Source of the DNA: Chloroflexota bacterium
GTDB taxonomy: Bacteria; Chloroflexota; Anaerolineae; Anaerolineales; Villigracilaceae
Assembly (NCBI GenBank): GCA_024434165.1
Contig: QMIW01000021.1
Location: 1 to 64,000 of the forward strand
Length of the DNA stretch: 64,000 nucleotides
Reading direction: 5' to 3'
The first letter of the stretch is position 1. Each line of letters starts with the position of its first letter. A model generated the notes under the pieces. The model ran no database searches. It was not told the origin of the DNA and saw nothing but the letters and a program-made list of their open reading frames with translations. Shown in pieces: positions 10,973-22,101 of this stretch. A program made the position numbers and the translations under genes.

Positions 10973-13900
10973 ATGTCCCCAATTCCCGTAAGCAAAACCA
11001 AGATCGTCCCGCCCCGCCGCCGCGAGGAACTGATCACCCGTCAGCGGCTGCTGGATATGCTGTTCGAGGCGCTGGATAAAAAACTGACGCTCGTCTCCGC
11101 CCCCGCCGGATACGGGAAGACCTCCCTGTTGATTGACCTGGCTGCTCAAAGCGACCTGCCCTGCTGCTGGCTGGCGCTGGATGAACTCGACCGCGAACCC
11201 CAGCGTTTTGCCGCGTATTTTATCGCCGCGCTGGCGGAGCGCTTCCCGACGTTCGGCAGCCGGTCGAACAGCGTGCTGGAGGGGATGAACTCGTTCGAGC
11301 AGGATATGGAACGTCTGCTGGTCACGCTCGTGAACGAACTGTACGAGCGCGTCAAAGAACATTTCATTTTTGTTTTGGACGATTTCCACCTGCTTGAGGG
11401 GGTCTCGTCCATCAGTTCCTTTGTGAATCGTTTCGTGCAGCTGATGGACGACAACTGTCACCTCGTCATTTCCTCGCGCATGCTGGCAACCCTGACCGAC
11501 CTGCCCCTGCTTGTGGCGCGTGAGCAGGTGAGCGGCTTGGGATTTTCCGACCTCGCCTTCCGTGCGGATGAGCTCCAGGCGCTGGTATTGCAGAACAGCG
11601 GAAAACACATCTCCGACGAAGAGGCGAACAGGCTCATCGAGGAATCCGAAGGGTGGATCACGGGCTTGCAGTTCTCCGGCGCGGGCATCCTGCGAAAGAA
11701 ACCGGCGTCTGTGTTTGAAGACGGCGCGGGGTTGTTCGATTACCTGGGTCAGCAGGTGCTCGACCGCCAGCCGCCCGAATTGAGGGAATTCATCCTGCGC
11801 ACCTCGCTGTTGGGCGAATTCGACGCGCAGCTTTGCGAATCTGTGCTTGCCCCGTTCTACCCGGAACCGCAAAACTGGCAGAACTGGATCAGGATGGTCA
11901 CGCGCAACAACCTTTTTGCGCTGCCCGTCGGCGAGGATGGAAGATGGCTGCGGTATCACCACCTGTTTCTGAATTTTATCCGTCAGCGCTTCGAGATCGA
12001 ACGCCCCGCTGAAGTAAAGCCGATCCTCTCCCGGCTGCAACTGGCGTACGAAAAAATGGGGGAATGGGGCAGGGCGCATCAGATCTGCCGGCAGCTGAAC
12101 GATACCCAGGCGCTTGCAGGGTTGATCGAGCGCGCAGGCACCTCCATGCTGCAAAGCGCGCACCTGACCATTGAATCCTGGCTGAATGAATTGCCGCCGT
12201 CCATGCTGAGGACGAAACCCGGATTGCTCTCCATCCGCGGGACCATTGCCTATACCAAAGGAGACCTGCAGGAAGGGCTGGATCTGCTGGCAAAGGCGGA
12301 GAAAATCTATCGGAAGGAAAAGGATGTTCCCGGTCTGATTCTGACGTTGATCCGGCGGGGGTCGGCGCTGCGTTTTGCCGGGGAGTATGAAGCGTCGCTG
12401 CGCGACGCGGAGGAGGTCATCGAACTTACGAAAGACAACGACGACGTGCAGGTGTTGTATGCCGACGCCCTGCGCATCAAGGGACTGGCTTTATACCGGC
12501 TGGGAAGGACCAACCAGGCTGTTCCGGTATTGGAGCGCGCGCTGGAGTTGTGTCGTTTGTACGACAAAGCCAACCTGCCGCTTCTTCTGATGGAAACGGG
12601 GATGGTGTATCGCGGGGTTGGCAATTTTGCAGACGCTCAGAAATCCTACGAGCAGGCATTGACTATCTGGCGGCAGGAGGGGAATCTATACTTCCAGGCG
12701 AGTTTGTTGAACAATCTCGGGGTTTTTTATCAATTCCTGGGCGAATACGAAAAGTCTGCGCTGGCGTACGAGGAGGGATTGCTTTGCGCCCAACGCATCC
12801 ATGATGCGCGCCTGAACGTCCTGATCTCCATCGGCTTTGGAGATTTGTATGCAGAGTTGGAAGACTTCGAAATGGCGCGTCACAACTACCAACATGCGGA
12901 AAGTGCCCTGCAGGGCATGGACAATCGCTTTCTCATCCATTCGCTTGCACTCGCGCGGGCGAATCTGGCGTTCCTGCAAAGGGATTCCGCCCTTGCAAAT
13001 GAGATCGTCGGCGAGGTAGGAGATTCGATCAATTCAAGCAATTCAAAATATGAAAAAAGCCTGCTCGACCTGCTGTGTGGGCGGCTGTATTTACTGGATG
13101 GGAATTGCAAAGAGGCGCTGGATAAGTTCACCGAATCCGAAAACCGGTTTTCCGAGGACGGCAGGGTCGCGGAGGCGTGCGCGGCGCGGATTTGGCGCGC
13201 AGCAGCCTGTTTTCAAGCAGGGGATTCCGGGGCGGCGTTGCAGATTTTGAGCGAACTCACCACAAGTCGTGGAAAGATCCTCCACCCGGCGCTGGTCGCC
13301 GCGCACCAAGCGCACGAATGGCTGGCGGGATTGCAGTCCGCTCCGGGAGTCGGGCGCGCGGTTCGCGATCTGCTGTCACAGGCTGAACGGTTCGGGGGCA
13401 GTAGTATCCCAACCATCCGTCGGCAGTTGAGGCGCCAGGTGCGGGTGATTTCCAGCCCCACACCCCGGCTGGTCATCCAGGCGTTTGGGCAGGCTGTGGT
13501 GAGCATGGATGGCAGACCGCTGACGCTCTCCGACTGGCAAACCCAATCGGTGCGGGAGTTATTTTTCTTTTTCCTCGCATCCACCAAGCCGCTCACCCGC
13601 GAGCAGGTTGGGGAGGCGCTTTGGAGGGAAATGTACGAGCCATCGAAATTGAAATTGCGGTTCAAGAACGAAGTCTACCGCCTGCGGCGTGCCGTTGGGC
13701 AGGATGTCATCCAGTTCAAGGACGTTTACTATTCGTTCAACCGCAATTTGGACTATGAATACGATGTGGAAGCGTTCGAGTCGTTTCTCTCCCGGGCGAA
13801 AGCCGCAAAGGAATCGGGCGAAAAGATGGATTTTTACCAGCGCGCAGTGGACCTGGTGCGCGGTCCCTACCTCAACGACCTGTACGCAGATTGGGCAACC

Positions 13901-14191
13901 CAGGACCGCGAACGCCTGCGGCTGGCTCATCTTGACGCGCTTTTGGCTCTCGCGGAATTGTATCTGAAACAAGCCCAGCCTCAAACCGCCATTGCCATTT
14001 GCCAGCGTATGTTGGAGATTGACCCCGGGAATGAAACCGCCTACCGAATATCCATGCAAGCCTCCCACCGGCAGGGAGACCGGGCTTCGATCACCCGTTT
14101 CTATCAGGCTTGCAGCGAAGCGCTGCGGCAGATGTTCAACCTGCCGCCCTCCAAAGAGACCGAGGAATTGTATCGGCAGCTGACAAAATAA
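10973..14191 (+). CDS. MalT-type ATPase with C-terminal BTAD (SARP-like) activator
   Basis: This 1072-aa regulator starts with a signal-transduction ATPase module (P-loop APAGYGKTS at 43-51, Walker B-like FIFVLDDFH near 131), followed by a winged-helix linker and a long TPR array (about residues 330-800). The last 250 residues are a winged-helix DNA-binding domain (from about 835, FGQAVVSMDG) and a bacterial transcriptional activator domain with TPRs. Such proteins bind DNA as inducer-dependent multimers; the inducer is unknown. It differs from LuxR/MalT in using BTAD-type DNA binding at the C-terminus. A strong terminator follows, then the small-peptide/DUF5317 set, which it may control. Confidence 0.92.
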   Translation: MSPIPVSKTKIVPPRRREELITRQRLLDMLFEALDKKLTLVSAPAGYGKTSLLIDLAAQSDLPCCWLALDELDREPQRFAAYFIAALAERFPTFGSRSNSVLEGMNSFEQDMERLLVTLVNELYERVKEHFIFVLDDFHLLEGVSSISSFVNRFVQLMDDNCHLVISSRMLATLTDLPLLVAREQVSGLGFSDLAFRADELQALVLQNSGKHISDEEANRLIEESEGWITGLQFSGAGILRKKPASVFEDGAGLFDYLGQQVLDRQPPELREFILRTSLLGEFDAQLCESVLAPFYPEPQNWQNWIRMVTRNNLFALPVGEDGRWLRYHHLFLNFIRQRFEIERPAEVKPILSRLQLAYEKMGEWGRAHQICRQLNDTQALAGLIERAGTSMLQSAHLTIESWLNELPPSMLRTKPGLLSIRGTIAYTKGDLQEGLDLLAKAEKIYRKEKDVPGLILTLIRRGSALRFAGEYEASLRDAEEVIELTKDNDDVQVLYADALRIKGLALYRLGRTNQAVPVLERALELCRLYDKANLPLLLMETGMVYRGVGNFADAQKSYEQALTIWRQEGNLYFQASLLNNLGVFYQFLGEYEKSALAYEEGLLCAQRIHDARLNVLISIGFGDLYAELEDFEMARHNYQHAESALQGMDNRFLIHSLALARANLAFLQRDSALANEIVGEVGDSINSSNSKYEKSLLDLLCGRLYLLDGNCKEALDKFTESENRFSEDGRVAEACAARIWRAAACFQAGDSGAALQILSELTTSRGKILHPALVAAHQAHEWLAGLQSAPGVGRAVRDLLSQAERFGGSSIPTIRRQLRRQVRVISSPTPRLVIQAFGQAVVSMDGRPLTLSDWQTQSVRELFFFFLASTKPLTREQVGEALWREMYEPSKLKLRFKNEVYRLRRAVGQDVIQFKDVYYSFNRNLDYEYDVEAFESFLSRAKAAKESGEKMDFYQRAVDLVRGPYLNDLYADWATQDRERLRLAHLDALLALAELYLKQAQPQTAIAICQRMLEIDPGNETAYRISMQASHRQGDRASITRFYQACSEALRQMFNLPPSKETEELYRQLTK

Positions 14192-14220
14192 TCTCCCGCA
14201 GACATCCCGTCCACAAAGTG

Positions 14221-14248
14221 AAAATCAGCCCAAAAAGGCTGATTTTTT
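14221..14248 (+). terminator. Rho-independent terminator
   Basis: Stem AAAATCAGCC (14221-14230) and GGCTGATTTT (14237-14246) with loop CAAAAA, followed by a long T-rich tract. It ends the MalT/BTAD transcript, so the small genes downstream need their own promoter. Confidence 0.9.
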
Positions 14249-14326
14249 GTTTTTTTGAAGCCTGTTTTGAAGCCTGGCGGCTGATATTCTGATTTTATCA
14301 AAACCAGATAGAAAGGAAAATTTGCC

Positions 14327-14470
14327 ATGAAAAACAAACTGAATCTCCTTGTCCTGTCCGCTTCAAAGATCAACCGCCAGCACATCCAGCTCTTTTTTGT
14401 ACTACTCTCCCTGACCATGCTGGTCCTCGGCGCAGGCGCGCCGGAAGATGGCGGTGGGACCAGCCGATAG
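14327..14470 (+). CDS. Small membrane/secreted peptide, 47 aa, Gly-rich C-terminus
   Basis: ATG with GAAAGGAAAA about 7 bases upstream. The peptide has a positively charged N-terminus, one hydrophobic helix (about residues 21-37) and a short hydrophilic tail GAGAPEDGGGTSR. It looks like a signal peptide or single membrane anchor with an external Gly-rich tail. The stop TAG shares its last base with the GTG start of the next gene (TAGTG), a classic translational-coupling arrangement. I do not recognise a named family. It could be a secreted signal, a membrane microprotein or a leader peptide. Confidence 0.6.
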   Translation: MKNKLNLLVLSASKINRQHIQLFFVLLSLTMLVLGAGAPEDGGGTSR

Positions 14471-15057
14471 TGATTCTCCTGGTTGCCGTTTTGGCTGGTC
14501 TCCTGGTTGGAATGGGCAGGGCGCGGTTGAATGGACAACTCTATCAGACGCCCGCGTTGCAGCACCTCTGGTTGGTTTTTGTCGCCTTCCTGCCCCAGTT
14601 CGTCATACTCTACATTCCAGCCGCCCGGCAACAAACGCCCGATTTGTGGGCAGCAGTCTTTCTGACGGCTTCACAACTGCTCCTGCTAACATTTGCCTGG
14701 CTCAACCGGGCACTGCCCGGAATGAAAATCCTGCTCATCGGCGCGGCGCTCAATTTTGCGGTCATGGCGGCGAACGGCGGGTTCATGCCCATCAGCCCGC
14801 AAACAGCCAGCCGTCTCATCCCGGAAGAGGCGGTTGCGGATATTCCCACCGGGGAGCGTTTCGGCACAAAGGACATCCTCCTCCCGCCGGAAGATACCCT
14901 CTTCGAGGGGCTTGCGGATCGTTTCCTGCCCCCAGCCTGGTTCCCGTATCAGGTGGCTTTCAGTCTTGGCGATGTTTTTCTGGCGATCGGTGTCTTCTGG
15001 TTATTAGCCAGTCAGCCGGCAAAATCAATACCATTAGCGAAAAGGATCACGACATGA
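14470..15057 (+). CDS. DUF5317 family membrane protein
   Basis: The 195-aa protein has about five to six membrane helices, with a conserved-looking ANGGFMPISP segment and an acidic RLIPEEAVADIPTGERFG region between helices. This matches DUF5317, a membrane family of unknown function. The GTG start overlaps the upstream stop, and the TGA stop overlaps the next ATG (ATGA), so translation of three genes is probably coupled. A longer frame starting at 14448 that runs through the next gene is not the real one here. Confidence 0.8.
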   Translation: MILLVAVLAGLLVGMGRARLNGQLYQTPALQHLWLVFVAFLPQFVILYIPAARQQTPDLWAAVFLTASQLLLLTFAWLNRALPGMKILLIGAALNFAVMAANGGFMPISPQTASRLIPEEAVADIPTGERFGTKDILLPPEDTLFEGLADRFLPPAWFPYQVAFSLGDVFLAIGVFWLLASQPAKSIPLAKRITT

Positions 15058-15335
15058 TCACCTCATTTACCTACCAGACGAATTTACAACAAATGAAAGT
15101 GACCCCGGTCACGGACCCGAACGGGTTGAGCCGGGTCTTTGCTGCGGCGGTCGTCAACCGCCAATTCTGCGATATGTTGTTGAAAAACCCCCTGGAGGCG
15201 CTCCAGAACGGCTATCTGGGCGAGACGTTCACGCTCACCAAGGAAGAAAAAGACCTGATCGCCTCCATCCGCGCCGAGTCCCTGCCGGACCTCGCCAGGC
15301 AGGTGTATCAATCGCTTTCGAGTCAGTATCAATAA
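15054..15335 (+). CDS. NHLP-clan (Os1348-like) small protein, 93 aa
   Basis: The middle and C-terminal part carries the pattern of nitrile-hydratase-leader-peptide clan proteins: a short helix with NRQFCDMLLKNPLEALQNGY, then FTLTKEEKDLIASIRAESLPDLA. In RiPP systems such sequences are leader regions for modified peptides, but here the protein ends within about 10 residues of the leader-like part and there is no Cys/Ser/Thr/Gly-rich core. It may therefore be a stand-alone regulator or partner protein. The ATG overlaps the DUF5317 stop, and the next gene begins 4 bases after its stop. Confidence 0.68.
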   Translation: MITSFTYQTNLQQMKVTPVTDPNGLSRVFAAAVVNRQFCDMLLKNPLEALQNGYLGETFTLTKEEKDLIASIRAESLPDLARQVYQSLSSQYQ

Positions 15336-15338
15336 GAG

Positions 15339-16376
15339 ATGCAGTTTTATTCTTCGGCTTCCCCGGATATGAATTCACAGAGTCCTGAAGGCTTGGGGGT
15401 ACAGAACGACATGAAACTTCAGATTTTCCTGCCTTCCGCTCCCAACCCCCCGATTTTCAACCTCGGGCTGGCAGACATGCTGGATGAGGTCGAAGATCTT
15501 CTTTTTACGGTGGACGTGCAAGGGAGGGTGCTTTCCTTCAAAGCAAGGAACGGCGTCAATTTGAGCCATTTCAAGCCATCCAGCCTGATGGTTCGGGATA
15601 TGGTGCCCGCCCGCACACGCCTGAAATATGAACACGCTTTCAGCCAGGTTACAGACGGCAGCCGGTTTGCCATGTTTGAGGTCATGCTCTCCCTGCCGGA
15701 AAAAGGCGCAGCCTGGTTCGAGTTCCGTTTTCTTCCAATCATGGATCAGAACCTGGCATTGTTCGTTTGGAATGTCAGCGGGTATAAAGCGCTCTCCAAA
15801 ACCGTTGCCAACGCCCCCATTTTCATCAACAAGATGATCGAGGGCTGGTCACGCGCGCTCTATCTGCGAGACTTTGAAACGGAAGATCATACCCGGCGCG
15901 TGGTTGCGACAACCATGCAGCTCGCCAGGCGGCTCGGCGTTCCCGAATATGAAATGGTACACATCCGCCGCGGCGGGGAACTGCACGATATCGGGAAGAT
16001 CGCCATTCCCGACCATATCCTGCTGAAAAATGGGGCGCTCTCGAAGGAAGAAAGAGAGATCATGCAGAAACATCCCATGATCGCCGCCGAGATCATGAAA
16101 GGAATTCCTCAAATCGAGCGTGCTATGGTCATTCCGCGCTCGCACCACGAGAAATGGGATGGAAGCGGATACCCGGAAGGGCTCAAAGGCGAAAGCATTC
16201 CCCTGTTCGCGCGAATCTTTGCTCTTGCAGATGTCTACGACGCCCTGACTTCCGACAGACCCTATCGCCGCGCATGGTCCAAGGCGGATGCGCTTGCTTA
16301 TATTCACACGGAATCGGGCAGGTATTTCGATCCGTCCATTACGCCCGTGTTTCTGGATATGCTCTCGGAAGGATGA
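15339..16376 (+). CDS. PAS-like sensor with HD-GYP phosphodiesterase domain
   Basis: The 345-aa protein has a PAS-like region (about residues 45-150) and an HD-GYP domain (about 165-340) with HD at 216-217, HHEKWDGSGYP at 269-279 and the GYP signature at 277-279, plus DVYDALTSDRPYR. HD-GYP proteins hydrolyse cyclic di-GMP; the metal ligands look intact, so activity is likely. The start is uncertain: ATGs at 15339, 15369 and 15411 are all possible. It follows the NHLP-like gene by 3 bases, placing second-messenger turnover in this operon. No transmembrane helix is seen. Confidence 0.9.
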   Translation: MQFYSSASPDMNSQSPEGLGVQNDMKLQIFLPSAPNPPIFNLGLADMLDEVEDLLFTVDVQGRVLSFKARNGVNLSHFKPSSLMVRDMVPARTRLKYEHAFSQVTDGSRFAMFEVMLSLPEKGAAWFEFRFLPIMDQNLALFVWNVSGYKALSKTVANAPIFINKMIEGWSRALYLRDFETEDHTRRVVATTMQLARRLGVPEYEMVHIRRGGELHDIGKIAIPDHILLKNGALSKEEREIMQKHPMIAAEIMKGIPQIERAMVIPRSHHEKWDGSGYPEGLKGESIPLFARIFALADVYDALTSDRPYRRAWSKADALAYIHTESGRYFDPSITPVFLDMLSEG

Positions 16377-16476: not shown

Positions 16477-17607
16477 TTAATTCCGCGTGCGCCCAAGCCT
16501 TCGTTGTTTTTCCGCTTCGTTTACCACCAGGAGGGTCATAGCTGCCAGGAGGAGAACAGCGCCCATAACCGGAGACGTGAGCGTGGAATGAAACTCAATA
16601 AAGAACCACGCCCATAAGGGTCCGAGCAGGGCAAACACGAAAAAGATACCGCCATCCTTGAAGCGAAGGCGGCCGTACGCAAGCCAGAGATTGTAGGGAA
16701 TGAGATGCGCGCCCGCATAACCGACTGCAATGGGAAGGGCGATTTTCATAAACTCGACCCATGCCGCCTGCGCGCCAATCAGGTTCTGCACAGACGTAAG
16801 CACAAAGATCACGAAATACCCAACATGGAAACCCACATACGCCCCCTGGTGGACGTAAAGATGAAGGACGGGGGAACGCGATAACCCTTTCTCCTTCCAA
16901 AATTCCTTTCCACCCGCGCCGGTCATCGCGCCGATGAGCAGCGGCAGGATAAGACTCCCAATCGTGTATAAGACCATAGATTGCACGACAGTCCCGTTCG
17001 TGGGCGGCCGCTGCAAAGACGGCGCAACCAGCCAATAGGCAATGACCCAAATCCAGACCCACAGGATCGCACGCAGCACATCGAAAACCGAGAGGCGGTC
17101 TGTAAATTTTCTTATCAACGCCACAGTCATCCGCGGCCAAACCGGCGAAGGTCCCTTGCGCGCCTTATCCATGATCTCCTCGAATTCCGAGGCGGAGATA
17201 AAGAAAATATCCCTGAGCAAGGACTGCAGATACGAATAAGACTCCTTTGAAGCGGATTCGGGCGCCGGGGGATCATCCGCTTCAAACGGACCCGGAAACA
17301 GTTCCTCCTTTTCGAGCTGGTTCAAGGCCCGATAGTTTCCCGCTTCCAGTAACCGGTCGGCATCCGCAGGCGATTGGACGCCCCCATGTTGTTTCAAAAT
17401 TTTCACCAGGCTGAGCAAAAGCAGGCGCTCATCGGCATTGATCCTGCTTTCGTTTCGTTCCCAATCGCTGACCGCCGCGCCGCTGTAATGAACGCCCATT
17501 TCATCGAACAAAAAATCCCCCAGTTTTTCCTGGGTCAGCCGTCTTCCGGTGGAGGAGTCTTTGCATTGCTCTCGAAAAGAACGGAGCAGGCTTCCGAAAT
17601 CGCTCAT
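16477..17607 (-). CDS. XRE-type HTH protein with C-terminal membrane domain
   Basis: The preferred start is the ATG at 17607 (376 aa), because the HTH domain begins there; an upstream extension in the same frame looks non-coding. Residues 1-75 form a cro/C1-type HTH (LTQEKLGDFLF ... SGAAVSDWERNESRI). A charged linker follows, then about five to six transmembrane helices in the C-terminal half. This is a membrane-tethered DNA-binding protein layout; ligand and targets are unknown. It lies between the HD-GYP operon and the ComQXPA-like locus. A motif CTAACGAAC about 130 bp upstream recurs before two genes of that locus. Confidence 0.8.
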   Translation of the reverse strand: MSDFGSLLRSFREQCKDSSTGRRLTQEKLGDFLFDEMGVHYSGAAVSDWERNESRINADERLLLLSLVKILKQHGGVQSPADADRLLEAGNYRALNQLEKEELFPGPFEADDPPAPESASKESYSYLQSLLRDIFFISASEFEEIMDKARKGPSPVWPRMTVALIRKFTDRLSVFDVLRAILWVWIWVIAYWLVAPSLQRPPTNGTVVQSMVLYTIGSLILPLLIGAMTGAGGKEFWKEKGLSRSPVLHLYVHQGAYVGFHVGYFVIFVLTSVQNLIGAQAAWVEFMKIALPIAVGYAGAHLIPYNLWLAYGRLRFKDGGIFFVFALLGPLWAWFFIEFHSTLTSPVMGAVLLLAAMTLLVVNEAEKQRRLGRTRN

Positions 17608-17883: not shown

Positions 17884-20133
17884 TTATGTTTCAGAATGCC
17901 AGGCGATGCGAACCCTCACTCCGCGTTCGGGTCCTGGCTGGATTTGGATATCCGCGCCGATCAGGCGCGCCCGCTCGACCATGTTGGCAAGCCCAAAGTG
18001 GTTGTTGCTCAATAAGGCGTCGAGGTCGAGCTGGACGTTTGAGCCGAAACCCCTGCCGTCGTCTTCGATGCAAAGGTCCAACGCCCGCGAAGTCATATTC
18101 CCGTAAATATTGATGGTCTTCGCCCCGGCGTGGCGCAGGGCGTTTTCACAGGCTTCCTGCGCGATACGGAAAATGTGCAGTTCCATGTGTTCCGGGATTC
18201 GGTCTCTGCCGTCGTTCAGGTCCACCTTAACCTTTACCCTGTCGCTGTTGCGTTCCATGAGATTCTCTGCCAGCGACTCAATGGCAGGTTTGAGACCGTA
18301 GGTCAGCATGGGCGGACGCAGGTCGCTGACGATCTCGCGCAGGCGCCGGGTCAATTCCTCGTAGGCGGGCTGGAAGTTGGGCGAGAGGCTGCTTTCGTCA
18401 AGGTTGCGGCGCAGGTATCCAAGCTGGTTGAGGATGCTGTCATGCAGTTCCAGCGCGAGGTGCATGCGTTCCTGTTCGGTGCGCTCGATGTCAATCTGGT
18501 ACATCTTCCTCAGTTGTTCGGCGTGCAGAATGTTGCTCAGGGCGATGGCGGTCTGGTTGGCGATGGCTTGCAGGATGGAAATTTCCTCGGAGGGATACAG
18601 GTCGTCGGGGTCGCGCTGTCCGAGCAGCCAAAAGCCGAGGTGGGCGCTGCCAACTTTGAGCGGGAGAATGAGGCGAATCCATTCCTCTGGAGTGGACGGG
18701 CTGGGGATGTATTTCCCCGCGCGGGCGATCAATCCGTCGAATCCGTTTTCGTCGGGCAGCTGGTTGTCTGGCGCGTTTTTGGCAAGGAGCGGCTTGAGGC
18801 TTCCATCCCGAACCTGCATGAAGGCGTATTGGCGAATGAGCAGGCTGGGGAAGACCTCCTCTTCCAGAAGTTGAAGCAGGTGGGGAATGGACGTGCTGGT
18901 GGTGATGCGGCTGGAGTAGGTCTCGGTCAGATTTTGGTAGGGGAGTTTGATGCCAAGAAAGCGTTTTTCCACGAAGGCTTGGAACCTGGGGAAAAAGGCG
19001 ACCGCCACGTACATGGAAGCAACGACGACCAGTGCGCCGATAAAAATCGAAATTTCGACCGTGATTTCCAGGCTGGTGATGGGAACGACAAGGACGAACA
19101 GGGCTGTGCCAAAAAAGATCAGGAATGCGTAAAGCGAGATGGAGCGTGTGAGTCGGACCTCCATCCCGCCCGGACGGCGGCGGTAGATCACATAGAAGTA
19201 CACCAGCGGCATGAAGGGAAGGGCAAAGAGGGCAGCCGGACCCAGCTGCGGGACCGCGCCGGCGATGACCAAAATCCCTAAAACAAAGGAGGGGAAAAAC
19301 GCCACGAAGATGGAAATTCCCAGCAGCCTCACGTCGCGGCGCTGCTCCGGGTGTCGTTTATAGCGAACCACCTGGAAAATGACGCTCCCCATCACCGCGA
19401 TCAGAAAGGCGGCGGCATACAGGCTTTTCGGCAGGAATTGGAAGATTTCCGCCGCCGCAAGGAGGAGCCCCATCAGGTAGGTGAAAGCCCATGCGGCTTT
19501 GGGCAATTCCTTCAACGGATGGGGAAATACCCAATGCAAATGCAGGTACACAGGCAAAAGCAGCCAGGTGACGGCGTGTAACAGGATCGAACTTTCCCAA
19601 AGATGGCGGGAGGATAAGGAGCCAAAGATCAGCCAAAGCGCCGTGAGGTAATTGACGGCGGCGAACAGCCTGAGGCGCTGGTCTTTTGGGCGAATCAACA
19701 ATTGTGCCGCCGCGCCAAAAACCCAGAAAAAGAAAGCCAGCCACCAGATGTTGATGAAGCGGGCGTTGAACTCAGTTTGACTGAACCCCGGAAATTTCCA
19801 CGGAACAACCATCTCCACGCCGTTCCGCACGATGGCGATCTCCACGCTCTCGCCCGGTTGGACGCCTTCAAACAACACCACCCTGGCATCCTTTTTGTAA
19901 TCTTCCCAGGAAACATCCCCAATTTGCACCAGGATATCGTCTCTCTGGAGGGAAGGCGTCTGTCCGGGCTGGGGATACACATCCATCACACGAGCCGTGT
20001 TGTTGTTGAAAGTGAAGCCCGCATAGGGGGCGGCAAACAGGATGCCGTAGGTGTACCAAGCCAATATCAACAGCACGGAAACAGGGATGAAGAGTTCACT
20101 AATTTGCCAGCGTGGAAGCGAATTTCGGCGCAT
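17884..20133 (-). CDS. ComP-like sensor histidine kinase
   Basis: The 749-aa kinase has a membrane helix (12-34), an extracytoplasmic PDZ-like segment (about 45-115, SLQRDDILVQIGDVSW), about eight membrane helices (125-385), a GAF-like region (405-540), a HisKA_3 dimerisation domain with His564 in ALELHDSILNQLG, and a HATPase domain (N-box ENALRHAG, DDGRGFG). Length and order match Bacillus ComP, including the PDZ-like loop and multi-helix sensor. It is divergent from a 56-aa peptide gene and a prenyl synthase, and a NarL-type regulator lies on the far side. GAGGAA precedes the ATG and TATAAT (minus strand, 20184-20189) is a candidate -10. It could instead be an unrelated NarX-type kinase, but the context argues for peptide sensing. 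Confidence 0.85.
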   Translation of the reverse strand: MRRNSLPRWQISELFIPVSVLLILAWYTYGILFAAPYAGFTFNNNTARVMDVYPQPGQTPSLQRDDILVQIGDVSWEDYKKDARVVLFEGVQPGESVEIAIVRNGVEMVVPWKFPGFSQTEFNARFINIWWLAFFFWVFGAAAQLLIRPKDQRLRLFAAVNYLTALWLIFGSLSSRHLWESSILLHAVTWLLLPVYLHLHWVFPHPLKELPKAAWAFTYLMGLLLAAAEIFQFLPKSLYAAAFLIAVMGSVIFQVVRYKRHPEQRRDVRLLGISIFVAFFPSFVLGILVIAGAVPQLGPAALFALPFMPLVYFYVIYRRRPGGMEVRLTRSISLYAFLIFFGTALFVLVVPITSLEITVEISIFIGALVVVASMYVAVAFFPRFQAFVEKRFLGIKLPYQNLTETYSSRITTSTSIPHLLQLLEEEVFPSLLIRQYAFMQVRDGSLKPLLAKNAPDNQLPDENGFDGLIARAGKYIPSPSTPEEWIRLILPLKVGSAHLGFWLLGQRDPDDLYPSEEISILQAIANQTAIALSNILHAEQLRKMYQIDIERTEQERMHLALELHDSILNQLGYLRRNLDESSLSPNFQPAYEELTRRLREIVSDLRPPMLTYGLKPAIESLAENLMERNSDRVKVKVDLNDGRDRIPEHMELHIFRIAQEACENALRHAGAKTINIYGNMTSRALDLCIEDDGRGFGSNVQLDLDALLSNNHFGLANMVERARLIGADIQIQPGPERGVRVRIAWHSET

Positions 20134-20183
20134 GGTTTCCTCTTTGTTGTGTAAATTGTAAAGGAAAGAAAGGAGGTGGTCCC

Positions 20184-20257
20184 ATTATAGCCCAAGAAAC
20201 CGGCTGACCCCGATATGACGTGTTCGTTAGCCCAATCCGATGAAAGGAGAATTTCAA
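20184..20257. promoter_or_regulatory. Divergent control region of the kinase and peptide genes
   Basis: This interval carries TATAAT on the minus strand (20184-20189) for the kinase, the motif GTTCGTTAG (20222-20230) 27 bases before the peptide ATG, and AAAGGAGA (20242-20249) as the peptide's ribosome binding site. No convincing -35/-10 pair is seen for the peptide gene, which fits an activator-dependent promoter. An isolated AGGAGGT at 20170-20178 has no usable start after it. Confidence 0.5.
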
Positions 20258-20428
20258 ATGAAAAATATGCAGGAGTTTCACAGGTGGTTGTCATCCAACG
20301 GGGACGCGAACGATCTCCCCAGGCGTCGTCTCGCCGCCATTGCCCATCTCGACCGCAGCCGGTTGGTGAAAGCCACGGGCGAATTATCGTGGTTCATTTG
20401 GGAGGCGGAGCAGGTTCCCGCCGCGTAG
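20258..20428 (+). CDS. ComX-like peptide precursor, 56 aa (candidate)
   Basis: ATG with AAAGGAGA 8 bases upstream. The 56-aa product has an N-terminal part with MQEFHRWL, a basic middle (DLPRRRLAAIAHLDRSR) and a C-terminus ATGELSWFIWEAEQVPAA with Trp45 and Trp48, eight residues from the end. It has no signal peptide. ComX precursors are 50-60 aa, lack a signal peptide and carry a near-C-terminal Trp that ComQ prenylates. The next gene, 49 bp on, is a prenyl synthase, and the divergent gene is a ComP-like kinase. Sequence similarity to known ComX is not visible, which is expected because ComX is hypervariable. Function is inferred from position and features. Confidence 0.62.
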   Translation: MKNMQEFHRWLSSNGDANDLPRRRLAAIAHLDRSRLVKATGELSWFIWEAEQVPAA

Positions 20429-20436
20429 TTTCAATT

Positions 20437-20464
20437 GCAGCGCGGGGGAACTTCTCCGCGCTGC
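20437..20464 (+). promoter_or_regulatory. Intercistronic stem-loop between peptide and prenyl synthase genes
   Basis: GCAGCGCGG (20437-20445) pairs with CCGCGCTGC (20456-20464), and G-U/G-C pairs extend the stem to about 12 bp with an AACT loop. No T-tract follows; GCAGGAG comes next as the synthase's ribosome binding site. It may set the peptide:enzyme ratio through partial termination or mRNA processing. Confidence 0.7.
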
Positions 20465-20477
20465 AAGCAGGAGTTGG

Positions 20478-21449
20478 ATGATGGATATATACACTCAGGT
20501 CATTGGGGAATTCTCGCGCATCCCGCATGTGAAGGAGTGGGAGGAGGTGCAGGCATTGTTCCGCCGCGCTGCCGCAGGCAAGCCGCATCACTGGCTGCTG
20601 CCGCTGCGCGCCTGCGAAGCGGTTGGCGGGGCTTGGGAGCGGGCGATCCCGGCGGTTGTGGCTGTGGCGTGCGGTCACATCGGGATCGTGCTGGTGGACG
20701 ATATGCTGGATGCCGACCCGCGCGGCGAGCATGTGAAAGCGGGCGAAGGCGCGGCGGCAAACATGGCATCTGCCTTTCAGTCGGCGGCGGTGGCGGCGGT
20801 TGCCAATTGCGATTTGAATCCGAACACAAAACTGCTGGCGATGGAAAGCGTCAACGAGATGTTTCTTGCCACCACCATCGGTCAGTATTGGGATGTAAAT
20901 TCAATCGTCCGGGATGAGGATTCGTATTGGAAGATCGCGCGGGGAAAGAGTTCGCCGTTCTTTGGCGCGGCGTTTCAGATCGGCGCATGGATGGGCGGCG
21001 CCTCGGCGGAGACTGCTGGTCGGGTAAGGGAGTTGGGGCAGTTATACGGGGAGATGATTCAAATCCACGACGATGTGAACGATACGCTGACCATCCCTGC
21101 GAAGCCCGATTGGGACGAAGGGCGTGCGCCGCTGCCCATTCTTTTCGCGCGGCTTGTGGACCATCCAATGCGCCGCCGGTTCGAGGAACTCCGTCCGCAT
21201 GTCGGGAACAGTTCACAGGTCCTGGAAGAGGCGCAGGAGATTCTCATCCGCTGCGGGGCGGTGAGTTACTGTATCCATCAGTTATTGAAACGGTATGAAA
21301 CGGTGAAGGGGATTTTGAGCGGGCTGGCGCTTGCGCGGGGCGACGTATTGGAGAAGGTCTTCGACGATGTCGTTCAACCGGTCTTTCAACTTTTCCGCGA
21401 GGTGGATGCAGCGTTTATTGGGAGAACGCTTCCGGCGAATACGGTGTGA
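20478..21449 (+). CDS. Polyprenyl synthase family protein, ComQ-like candidate
   Basis: The 323-aa protein is an all-helical trans-prenyltransferase: first Asp-rich motif DDMLD (74-78), GQYWD (135-139), Lys157 in ARGKSS, and second Asp motif DDVND (198-202). These bind Mg-diphosphate, so chain-forming chemistry is possible. ComQ proteins belong to the same superfamily and prenylate a Trp of ComX. Length is close to ComQ and to short-chain synthases. It is the second gene after the peptide, with GCAGGAG before ATG (a second ATG is at 20481), and its 3' end overlaps the regulator gene by 35 bases, tail to tail. The alternative is a housekeeping isoprenoid synthase; no other isoprenoid genes are nearby. 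Confidence 0.75.
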   Translation: MMDIYTQVIGEFSRIPHVKEWEEVQALFRRAAAGKPHHWLLPLRACEAVGGAWERAIPAVVAVACGHIGIVLVDDMLDADPRGEHVKAGEGAAANMASAFQSAAVAAVANCDLNPNTKLLAMESVNEMFLATTIGQYWDVNSIVRDEDSYWKIARGKSSPFFGAAFQIGAWMGGASAETAGRVRELGQLYGEMIQIHDDVNDTLTIPAKPDWDEGRAPLPILFARLVDHPMRRRFEELRPHVGNSSQVLEEAQEILIRCGAVSYCIHQLLKRYETVKGILSGLALARGDVLEKVFDDVVQPVFQLFREVDAAFIGRTLPANTV

Positions 21450-22101
21450 TGATCCCCAGTTGGCGCGCCTTGGCAATGGCGGCGGCGCGGCTGTTTACAT
21501 TGAGTTTTACATACGCTTTGGAAAGTAAATTCCGCGCGGTGGAATGTTTGACCTTGAGTTTGCGCGCCAGGTCGGAGGTGGTGTCGTTGGGATATGCGGC
21601 GCTGAGGGAGAGGGCTTCCCGTTCGCGGGGGGTGAGTTCGCTGGCTTCGCTGGATAAATGTTTGAGATAGATGTCGTGGGTGATTCGGCTGAGTTGGATG
21701 CCGTCGCCGGCTATCGTTTTGACCACGCTCGCCAGGTTTTTGAGAACGGTTTGATCGTCCTTCAGGATGTACCCGCTCGCTCCCGCCTCCATCACGGCGC
21801 GAATCAAGCCCCGGTCGGCGTGCATGCTGATGACGAGAACCTTGAGCTGGGGGTGTGCCTCCAGCAGGTTGGGAATGACGTGCAAAATGGGATAGGGGTT
21901 GCGGTTGTCGCTCGAAGTTGGCACATTGACATCCAAAATCACTACGTCGGCAGGCTGGGTATCGAGCGTGTTCTCCAGTTCATTTCCATAACTCATCCGT
22001 GCCACCACCTGGATTTGCGGATCTTTTTCGAGCATGGCAACATATCCTTCCACCGTTACAAGGTGGTCGTCCAAAATTGCCACACGCAGCTTTTTGTTCA
22101 T
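21415..22101 (-). CDS. NarL/LuxR-type response regulator, ComA-like
   Basis: The start at 22101 gives 228 aa and is preceded by GAGGGAG; an upstream extension lacks domain content. The receiver domain (1-125) has Asp11/Asp12 and phospho-acceptor Asp57 in VVILDVNVP. The C-terminal HTH (about 155-220) contains LTPREREALSLSAA and ARNLLSKAYVKL, a GerE/LuxR-type domain. HisKA_3 kinases pair with this class, so the ComP-like kinase 1.3 kb away is the likely partner. In Bacillus, ComA is the matching regulator. Its coding end overlaps the prenyl synthase end, and a TGTCTA-N7-TAGACA operator-like site lies upstream. Confidence 0.86.
   Translation of the reverse strand: MNKKLRVAILDDHLVTVEGYVAMLEKDPQIQVVARMSYGNELENTLDTQPADVVILDVNVPTSSDNRNPYPILHVIPNLLEAHPQLKVLVISMHADRGLIRAVMEAGASGYILKDDQTVLKNLASVVKTIAGDGIQLSRITHDIYLKHLSSEASELTPREREALSLSAAYPNDTTSDLARKLKVKHSTARNLLSKAYVKLNVNSRAAAIAKARQLGIITPYSPEAFSQ

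Follow-up and report, generated by a model that had tools for sequence, protein, structure and literature searches.

A four-gene locus of Anaerolineae that probably encodes prenyl-tryptophan peptide quorum sensing resembling ComQXPA

Four adjacent genes at positions 17884-22101 of a 64,000-nucleotide (nt) stretch of Chloroflexota DNA (GenBank assembly GCA_024434165.1, contig QMIW01000021.1, positions 1 to 64,000; hereafter the window) probably form a quorum-sensing system that functions like ComQXPA and whose signal would be a tryptophan-prenylated peptide; judging from the predicted proteins and their conservation, we put the probability of this reading at about 0.8. The host genome comprises 4.4 Mb in 173 contigs; we judge from its relatives that it belongs to Chloroflexota, Anaerolineae. 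The genes lie in the order P(-) X(+) Q(+) A(-) and encode a ComP-like sensor histidine kinase (P), a small precursor peptide (X), a protein resembling trans-isoprenyl diphosphate synthases (trans-IDS) that we propose prenylates X (Q), and a response regulator (A). The locus is not a strict member of the ComQXPA systems, because it was tested for ComX family membership, a degenerate second aspartate-rich motif (SARM) in the enzyme, and gene order on a single strand, and has none of these. Nor is it a lone oddity: it is one member of a family with at least three architectures. Its parts are as follows.

17884..20133, minus strand: P, ComP-like sensor histidine kinase, 749 amino acids (aa); homologue in 24 of 25 distinct related loci within the fetched stretches (none in L055)
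19795..20022, minus strand: P residues 38-113, PDZ-like loop between membrane helices 1 and 2 (AlphaFold2 [AF2] secondary structure; collinear with ComP in the profile alignment)
18958..19758, minus strand: P residues 126-392, multi-transmembrane (multi-TM) sensor module (AF2, profile alignments; divergence valley relative to L053)
17887..18939, minus strand: P residues 399-749, GAF-like domain, HisKA_3-like dimerization and histidine phosphotransfer (DHp) domain, and HATPase_c (Pfam, AF2, alignment)
20258..20428, plus strand: X, precursor peptide, 56 aa, with W45-x-x-W48 (open reading frame [ORF], Shine-Dalgarno sequence, conservation)
20390..20401, plus strand: WFIW motif of X, proposed prenylation site (WxxW in 26 of 26 aligned rows)
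20478..21449, plus strand: Q, trans-IDS-like prenyltransferase, proposed X-prenylating enzyme (PF00348, motifs, trees, AF2 model)
20697..20711, plus strand: first aspartate-rich motif (FARM) of Q, DDMLD; D73, D74, and D77 invariant in 24 of 24 rows
21069..21083, plus strand: SARM of Q, DDVND; D197, D198, D201, and the preceding Q194 invariant in 24 of 24 rows
21415..22101, minus strand: A, NarL/FixJ-type response regulator, 228 aa; in 23 of 25 distinct loci (missing in L054, where the contig ends, and in L059)

An earlier note, made from the letters of this DNA alone, had proposed that these genes supply the exact parts list of ComQXPA, and the ORF positions bear out its gene order and strands. 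Its NarL-type response regulator also stands, with a Response_reg match of 50.5 bits and a GerE match of 23.4 bits, just below the Pfam cut-off of 23.5; the gene overlaps the 3' end of Q on the opposite strand.

The arrangement recurs in related genomes. A pattern-based scan for Q in contigs from 84,980 species, which can detect close relatives only, returned 26 loci, all titled as Chloroflexota, Chloroflexi, or Anaerolineae metagenome-assembled genomes; L037 and L038, identical in length, hits, and X, were counted once, which leaves 25 distinct loci that together with the window form group 1. The neighborhood search that the earlier note had recommended finds the exact P(-)X(+)Q(+)A(-) order in 20 of the 25, two of which have a disrupted frame, in P for L049 and in Q for L053; L054 differs by its missing A only, and L055, L057, L058, and L059 are arranged otherwise. 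At the level of the host's own family the locus is patchy, with Q matching at E<3e-86 in 20 of 152 genomes. At L178:3935-4810 and L053:6001-6973, Q is split over frames, either as a pseudogene or through sequencing error.

The peptide gene exceeds chance expectation. Translation of X starts at the ATG at 20258, behind a strong Shine-Dalgarno sequence (AAAGGAG), and its stop codon ends at 20428; the 56 residues run MKNMQEFHRW...GELSWFIWEAEQVPAA and the C-terminus reads ...SWFIWEAEQVPAA. The last tryptophan, W48, stands 8 residues from the C-terminus, inside the interval of 5 to 10 residues used as a criterion for ComQXPA. Among the 26 aligned X sequences, MQxF occurs near the start in 21, and the last tryptophan is the final residue in seven. 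An automatic rule (ATG with a Shine-Dalgarno-like core, 38-75 aa, and WxxW within the last 24 residues) recovered X upstream of Q at 25 of 26 loci, the window included, versus 1 of 2,600 dinucleotide shuffles, none of 26 reverse strands, and none of 816 other tiles from the same loci, so X is more than a chance ORF. The rule failed only at L042, where the ATG falls too close to the border of the 550-nt slice; read directly, an X-like ORF precedes Q in all 25 distinct loci. The earlier note's peptide with a C-terminal tryptophan is therefore borne out, as is its conservation in relatives, which had been set beforehand as a test. In a Pfam scan X does not match the ComX family PF05952, and in NCBIfam it matches no NHLP-type leader; a genome search with PF05952 returned 0 matches in 150 genomes, but as its 14 control genomes were equally silent, this zero carries no weight.

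Q (322 or 323 aa, with its start at 20478 or 20481) matches PF00348 at 64.4 bits and has DDMLD at residues 73-77 and DDVND at residues 197-201, in agreement with the trans-prenyl synthase that the earlier note had described. In a tree of 24 Chloroflexota Q proteins, 16 canonical synthases, four ComQ, and one Acaryochloris protein (L038, L053, and L054 were left out), the Chloroflexota Q (support, 100/99), the synthases (98/95), and ComQ (100/99) form separate clades, so the grouping with housekeeping synthases that would have spoken against the earlier note was not found. The GKxxRP motif, the RR after the FARM, and the post-SARM loop are kept in 11 of 11 canonical synthases and absent, within a chosen set, from 21 Q of three Chloroflexota groups and 5 ComQ. 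The GKxxRP and RR residues bind isopentenyl diphosphate and diphosphate, and their loss makes chain elongation by Q unlikely; on the separate clade and the lost motifs we reject the reading of Q as a housekeeping synthase. The glutamine before the SARM (Q194) is invariant in Q but present also in the canonical synthases aligned; in tryptophan prenyltransferases, the SARM region with its preceding glutamine is thought to recognize indole (PMC13290415). The AF2 model of Q (predicted local distance difference test [pLDDT], 93.7) has a trans-IDS fold, and Foldseek and VIA return that general fold with no finer discrimination. No relative of Q was found among viral contigs, and plasmids yielded only distant synthases, all below 60% identity; chromosome-to-chromosome transfer would be compatible with both results.

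Pfam finds HATPase_c in P (31.6 bits; cut-off, 26.4), HisKA_3 below its cut-off (15.7 versus 24), and a weak GAF domain. The AF2 model (mean pLDDT, 79.1) has a helix at residues 7-34, a beta-rich PDZ-like loop at about 38-113, membrane helices within 131-392, and a GAF-like domain at 399-540 followed by the kinase core, whose DHp domain carries LHD with His564 invariant in 21 of 21 rows. We call the loop PDZ-like on the basis of its predicted secondary structure and the ComP profile alignment; Foldseek on the whole of P returned kinase cores and no PDZ chain among the 50 matches listed. Of the earlier note's ComP-like kinase, the PDZ-like loop, the multi-TM sensor, and HATPase_c are upheld, and HisKA_3 and GAF remain sub-cut-off and weak.

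Compared with the ComP sensor, a profile of the P sensor half gives an alignment of 423 columns (probability, 98.1), and one that includes the second group described below reaches E 7e-16 over 411 columns (reversed ComP control, 0.24). Single ComP sequences match the P sensor profile at 4e-8, 3e-7, and 3e-4, versus 0.066 or worse for 12 HisKA_3 kinases of the host's own genome, L067 excepted (3e-4 over 158 columns). By these profile comparisons the two sensors are clearly homologous. The sensor is more telling than P as a whole, since sensor profiles separate ComP from own-genome kinases and whole-length BLAST does so only narrowly. No match to the P sensor was found in plasmids. As to the NarX-type grouping named by the earlier note as a possible refutation, the kinase core resembles NarQ/MctS-type kinases generically, but the sensor half matches ComP; none of that note's three refutation tests, on Q, the peptide, and the kinase, goes against it.

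The same sensor accompanies Q in other arrangements. Within the Anaerolineae class, 26 of 396 sampled genomes contain Q; a phylum-wide sample of 400 has it in 6, of which one lies beyond the class. Twenty further regions were fetched, one of which (L111) repeats L058; L112 and L113 have the window order, in 14 Q is followed by P in the same orientation (the second group), and the others are L124 (X-Q at a contig end), L128 (Q alone), and L130 (P-X-Q plus a partial second P). In the second group the rule finds a WxxW ORF upstream in 9 of 14 loci, and by eye L115 and L121 have an upstream ORF with WxW or a single tryptophan; neither the rule nor reading by eye identified an X in the remaining three. 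Second-group sensors match those of group 1 at E 1e-86, and their kinase cores are Pfam HisKA in both loci scanned (L125 and L117), with HELRTPL found by script in 11 of 13 (L114 has HELRTPI; L115 has a receiver-like end by eye). Because the same sensor sits on HisKA_3-type and on HisKA kinases beside X-Q, the constant companion of X-Q is the sensor and not the kinase.

Group 3 consists of ten loci (L167-L176) fetched from 18 weaker sensor matches (1e-60<E<=1e-20); seven have a Q-like ORF adjoining P, one is a fusion, and two lack Q. The fusion, L171:3169-6381, is a single frame of 1,070 aa that joins a degenerate Q (first aspartate motif, DAVQD) to a PDZ-like sensor kinase and is either a natural enzyme-receptor fusion or an assembly quirk. 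Upstream of Q, L168, L170, and L173 encode an NHLP-type peptide ending in WG (NF038399 at 46.1, 43.1, and 20.8 bits; the cut-off of 40 is exceeded in the first two), and L172, L175, and L176 have, by eye, similar-looking leaders with a tryptophan-bearing tail. In L168 all four genes share a strand, in the order X-Q-P-A. Compared with ComP, the sensors of group 3 score E 2e-21. When group 3 is added to the enzyme tree, it stands with ComQ and the Acaryochloris protein on one side (support, only 83/88) and groups 1 and 2 with the synthases on the other; on the profile evidence the receptor sensors of these systems are clearly homologous, and a single origin of the enzymes does not follow from the tree.

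Among the 396 class genomes, taken as the same sample for both counts, a strong sensor (E<1e-60, a cut picked after viewing the list) occurs in 25, Q in 26, and both in 23 (Fisher test, 7e-32, with kinship ignored). The exceptions are G047 and G105 with the sensor only, and G174, G242, and G504 with Q only (in G174 and G504, Q lies at a contig end). Four further loci, L163-L166, have an A-P pair with no X-Q in the fetched stretch and perhaps listen without sending. Among them L163, which belongs to the same genus, keeps A-P together with the window's upstream neighbors (BTAD, DUF5317, Os1348, and HD-GYP), which makes it look as if X-Q had been deleted; its promoter element is partly changed.

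Synteny between L053 and the window extends across the entire region, and in this one pair of loci the X core and the P sensor are the most diverged parts. Nucleotide identity is 52.8% for X after residue 15, 65.3% for the first transmembrane helix and PDZ-like loop, 69.5% for the transmembrane module, and 70.2% for the P-X spacer, versus 90.5% for GAF, 82.8% for the kinase, 81.8% for Q, 85.5% for A, and 79.3-92.6% for neighboring genes (next gene, 92.6%). The comQXP genes of Bacillus are described as highly polymorphic, comQ included (PMC4408185). Across 19 loci, with kinase, Q, and A identity held constant, X-leader identity covaries with P-sensor identity (partial r, 0.33; 1 of 999 permutations as high); seven of the 26 rows were left out, namely, L046, L049, L051, L053, and L059 by choice, as they are long, broken, or differently arranged, L054 for want of A, and L055 for want of P.

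In the mechanism that we favor, X would be translated as a 56-aa precursor, and Q would bind its leader and attach an isoprenyl group to a tryptophan of the C-terminal WxxW. A protease and an exporter would release a short lipidated C-terminal peptide, to be bound by the PDZ-like/multi-TM sensor of P on neighboring cells; P would then autophosphorylate and pass the phosphate to A, which in its phosphorylated form would alter transcription. We infer X prenylation, the tryptophan used, processing, export, the pairing of ligand and receptor, P-A phosphotransfer, and targets from the makeup of the locus. The earlier note's prenylated-peptide signaling in an Anaerolineae-like organism accordingly holds for the genes, their linkage, the Q clade, and the ComP-like sensor, with prenylation and sensing inferred.

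Several observations weigh against this reading. X matches nothing in Pfam or NCBIfam at E<=1 and has no profile similarity to five ComX by hhalign (probability, 0.3), and its core shows no covariation with the P sensor over the 19 loci (partial r, -0.03, a value reached in 607 of 999 permutations). Q retains a full DDxxD SARM, which is absent at that place in 5 of 5 ComQ references; the tree, in which long branches were flagged, does not settle how Q and ComQ join; Q and ComQ profiles each match canonical synthases better than one another; and group 3 Q matches ComQ at 1.5e-26, less well than group 1 Q (7e-36) or canonical synthases (3e-33 and 3e-30). The fold is nondiscriminating, with the VIA Z score for Ord1 (26.8) inside the range of 26.6-30.4 among the 50 matches listed. 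In whole-length BLAST of P against the 12 HisKA_3 kinases of the host genome and three ComP (one a fragment), the best match is Anoxybacillus ComP at 9.6e-25, narrowly ahead of a kinase from the host genome (1.2e-23), with Priestia ComP in ninth place (4e-14); on the sensor, one ComP does no better than own-genome kinase L067 (both 3e-4). Finally, the loci from which the co-occurrence profile of the sensor was derived were themselves linked to Q.

Three other explanations have to be weighed. X-Q could make a prenylated antimicrobial of the ribosomally synthesized and post-translationally modified peptide (RiPP) type, with P-A as a self-sensing or immunity switch, not a quorum sensor. Tryptophan prenylation is found in RiPPs at large (PMC10853753, PMC13290415), and group 3 precursors have NHLP RiPP leaders, yet the receptor is a regular partner of Q, and the four A-P pairs without X-Q fit listening at least as well as immunity; on these linkage data we regard this alternative as unlikely, though the strongest of the three. 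It is less probable still, and in our judgment improbable, that Q makes a free prenyl compound (a terpenoid or prenylated metabolite) as the signal, with X either an unrelated peptide or some small regulator. Such an enzyme would suit the trans-IDS fold and the two aspartate-rich motifs, and Ord1, of the same fold, prenylates free tryptophan (PMC13290415); against it stand an X with WxxW upstream of Q in all 26 group 1 rows, the lost GKxxRP and RR motifs, and three group 3 loci that have another leader type and yet again a tryptophan near the C-terminus. Very little credence is left for an ordinary chain-length polyprenyl synthase lying beside a two-component system by chance, which would account for the PF00348 match and the DDxxD motifs but not for the separate clade, the motif losses, or the linkage over 25 loci, and the host genome holds two PF00348 proteins besides Q.

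The surroundings of the locus add two further features.

20169..20191, P's strand: conserved P-promoter element, GCTATAAT-N3-ACCACCTCCTTT, a -10 box followed by an anti-Shine-Dalgarno-like run
16477..17607, minus strand: R, predicted membrane protein and possible accessory gene, 3' of P (tblastn homologues at other loci)

Read on P's strand, the element is GCTATAAT-N3-ACCACCTCCTTTC, and the run ACCACCTCCTTTC presumably matches the 3' end of 16S rRNA (the anti-Shine-Dalgarno sequence). Of 23 P-X intergenic regions, 21 contain CACCTCC or CACCACC (the exceptions are L056 and L057), and in 16 TATAAT precedes it. Allowing up to 3 mismatches, the element is found once in the host genome, as is a backward control; exact TATAAT-N3-9-CACCTCCTT is found once, its control not at all. 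The possibility that the AAAGGAGGTG run on X's strand is followed by a short upstream ORF was considered and dropped, since no conserved frame was visible by eye. R, with a helix-turn-helix-like N-terminus read by eye, has no Pfam or NCBIfam match; its tblastn homologues lie at 14 of 25 other distinct genome-contig loci and 1 of 19 further regions. Upstream, at 10973-16376 (+), are a BTAD/TPR regulator, DUF5317, an NHLP peptide of the Os1348 type (its 27.9 bits fall short of the cut-off, 40), and an HD-GYP protein, a stretch that is a candidate for the output of the signal; DUF5317 and Os1348 occur together in six other genome-contig loci and L163, and Os1348 also in L045.

Beyond the single locus, we lean, with less assurance than for the window's own system, toward a class-wide family of prenyl-tryptophan pheromones in Chloroflexota. 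Its defining feature would be one PDZ-like/multi-TM receptor module, joined by recombination to kinase cores of HisKA_3, HisKA, and hybrid type and to precursors bearing either of two unrelated leaders (MQxF or NHLP); listener loci that lack a signal would be remnants of this process. The ComQXPA of Firmicutes and PalQXP would then be two outlying branches of the wider class, and WxxW peptides may carry two prenyl-tryptophan sites. Lipid-tagged-peptide signaling in the style of Bacillus may then be much wider than thought, and the results suggest that the receptor's sensor module, not its kinase, travels with the signal. For the mostly uncultured Anaerolineae, a conserved and differently wired family offers a testable signaling language for the phylum, and enzymology gains dozens of candidate pairs of tryptophan prenyltransferase and substrate, many with two-tryptophan cores.

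Among the reports covered, which include few subscription papers or preprints, we found no Chloroflexota prenyl-peptide or ComX system beyond a 2022 KEGG survey whose discussion mentions a ComP-ComA pair alone in Chloroflexi and whose results section names deinococci (PMC8895600, as far as the consulted text goes). The earlier note's statement that described ComQXPA systems come from Firmicutes agrees with the 2014 census, which, in the portion consulted, places ComQXPA-like loci in Firmicutes only (PMC4008528).

Our references for ComQXPA were L060 (B. velezensis), L061 (Anoxybacillus), L062 (Lysinibacillus), L063 (Priestia), and L065. Several of the sequences surveyed have peculiarities of their own. 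L065 (CP065518) and CP031730 are plasmids labeled Stenotrophomonas whose ComQ is close to that of Lysinibacillus L062, and in L065, ComX and ComP follow ComQ; the Stenotrophomonas label or sample is probably wrong. In L062 (Lysinibacillus fusiformis pMGMM7), comQ-comX has no comP-comA among its annotated neighbors and is perhaps a sender without a receiver. The Acaryochloris marina plasmid pREC3 (L064; typed conjugative) has a gene for a ComQ-like polyprenyl synthase with no kinase annotated nearby.

Of the known systems compared, ComQXPA shares with the window four adjacent counterparts, X being matched by position, size, and tryptophan alone; a small precursor with a C-terminal tryptophan; a trans-IDS-like enzyme with PF00348 and the FARM and without GKxxRP or RR; a NarL-type regulator (receiver plus LuxR-type helix-turn-helix); and a receptor built of a PDZ-like loop, a multi-TM sensor, a Part-1/GAF-like domain, and HisKA_3/HATPase. 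The residue layout of P is near that of BaComP, for which a PDZ domain at 30-108 that is proposed to bind ComX, ten transmembrane helices, and Part 1 at 388-543 are described (PMC9620489). ComQXPA genes lie on one strand as Q-X-P-A, apart from one unusual group with comX opposite (PMC4008528), whereas in the window P and A are opposite in strand to X-Q and X is upstream of Q. The window X has two tryptophans (WxxW) and an MxxMQxF leader without ComX similarity, its Q has an intact SARM (DDVND) where that of ComQ is degenerate and is described as missing (pseudo-SARM; PMC10853753), and its host belongs to Chloroflexota, not Firmicutes. The earlier note's "exact parts list" therefore keeps its four adjacent counterparts and loses its exactness, X not being detectably homologous to ComX, the SARM being intact, and strand and order differing.

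In Paenibacillus, PalX, an NHLP precursor with a C-terminal tryptophan, is described alongside PalQ and the kinase PalP (PMC10853753). Compared by description and not by alignment, PalQ-PalX-PalP and the window share a histidine kinase, a peptide, and a trans-IDS-like enzyme that is, or in the window is proposed to be, a tryptophan prenyltransferase; seven group 1 X end on tryptophan, and Chloroflexota group 3 X has an NHLP leader, whereas the window X is not NHLP and the window has a linked response regulator. Ord1 (PDB 9v4g-9v4i) shares the trans-IDS fold and the glutamine before the SARM, as do the canonical synthases aligned; it has no peptide partner, and its VIA score is level with those of ordinary synthases. 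From housekeeping polyprenyl diphosphate synthases Q differs in GKxxRP, in RR, and in clade.

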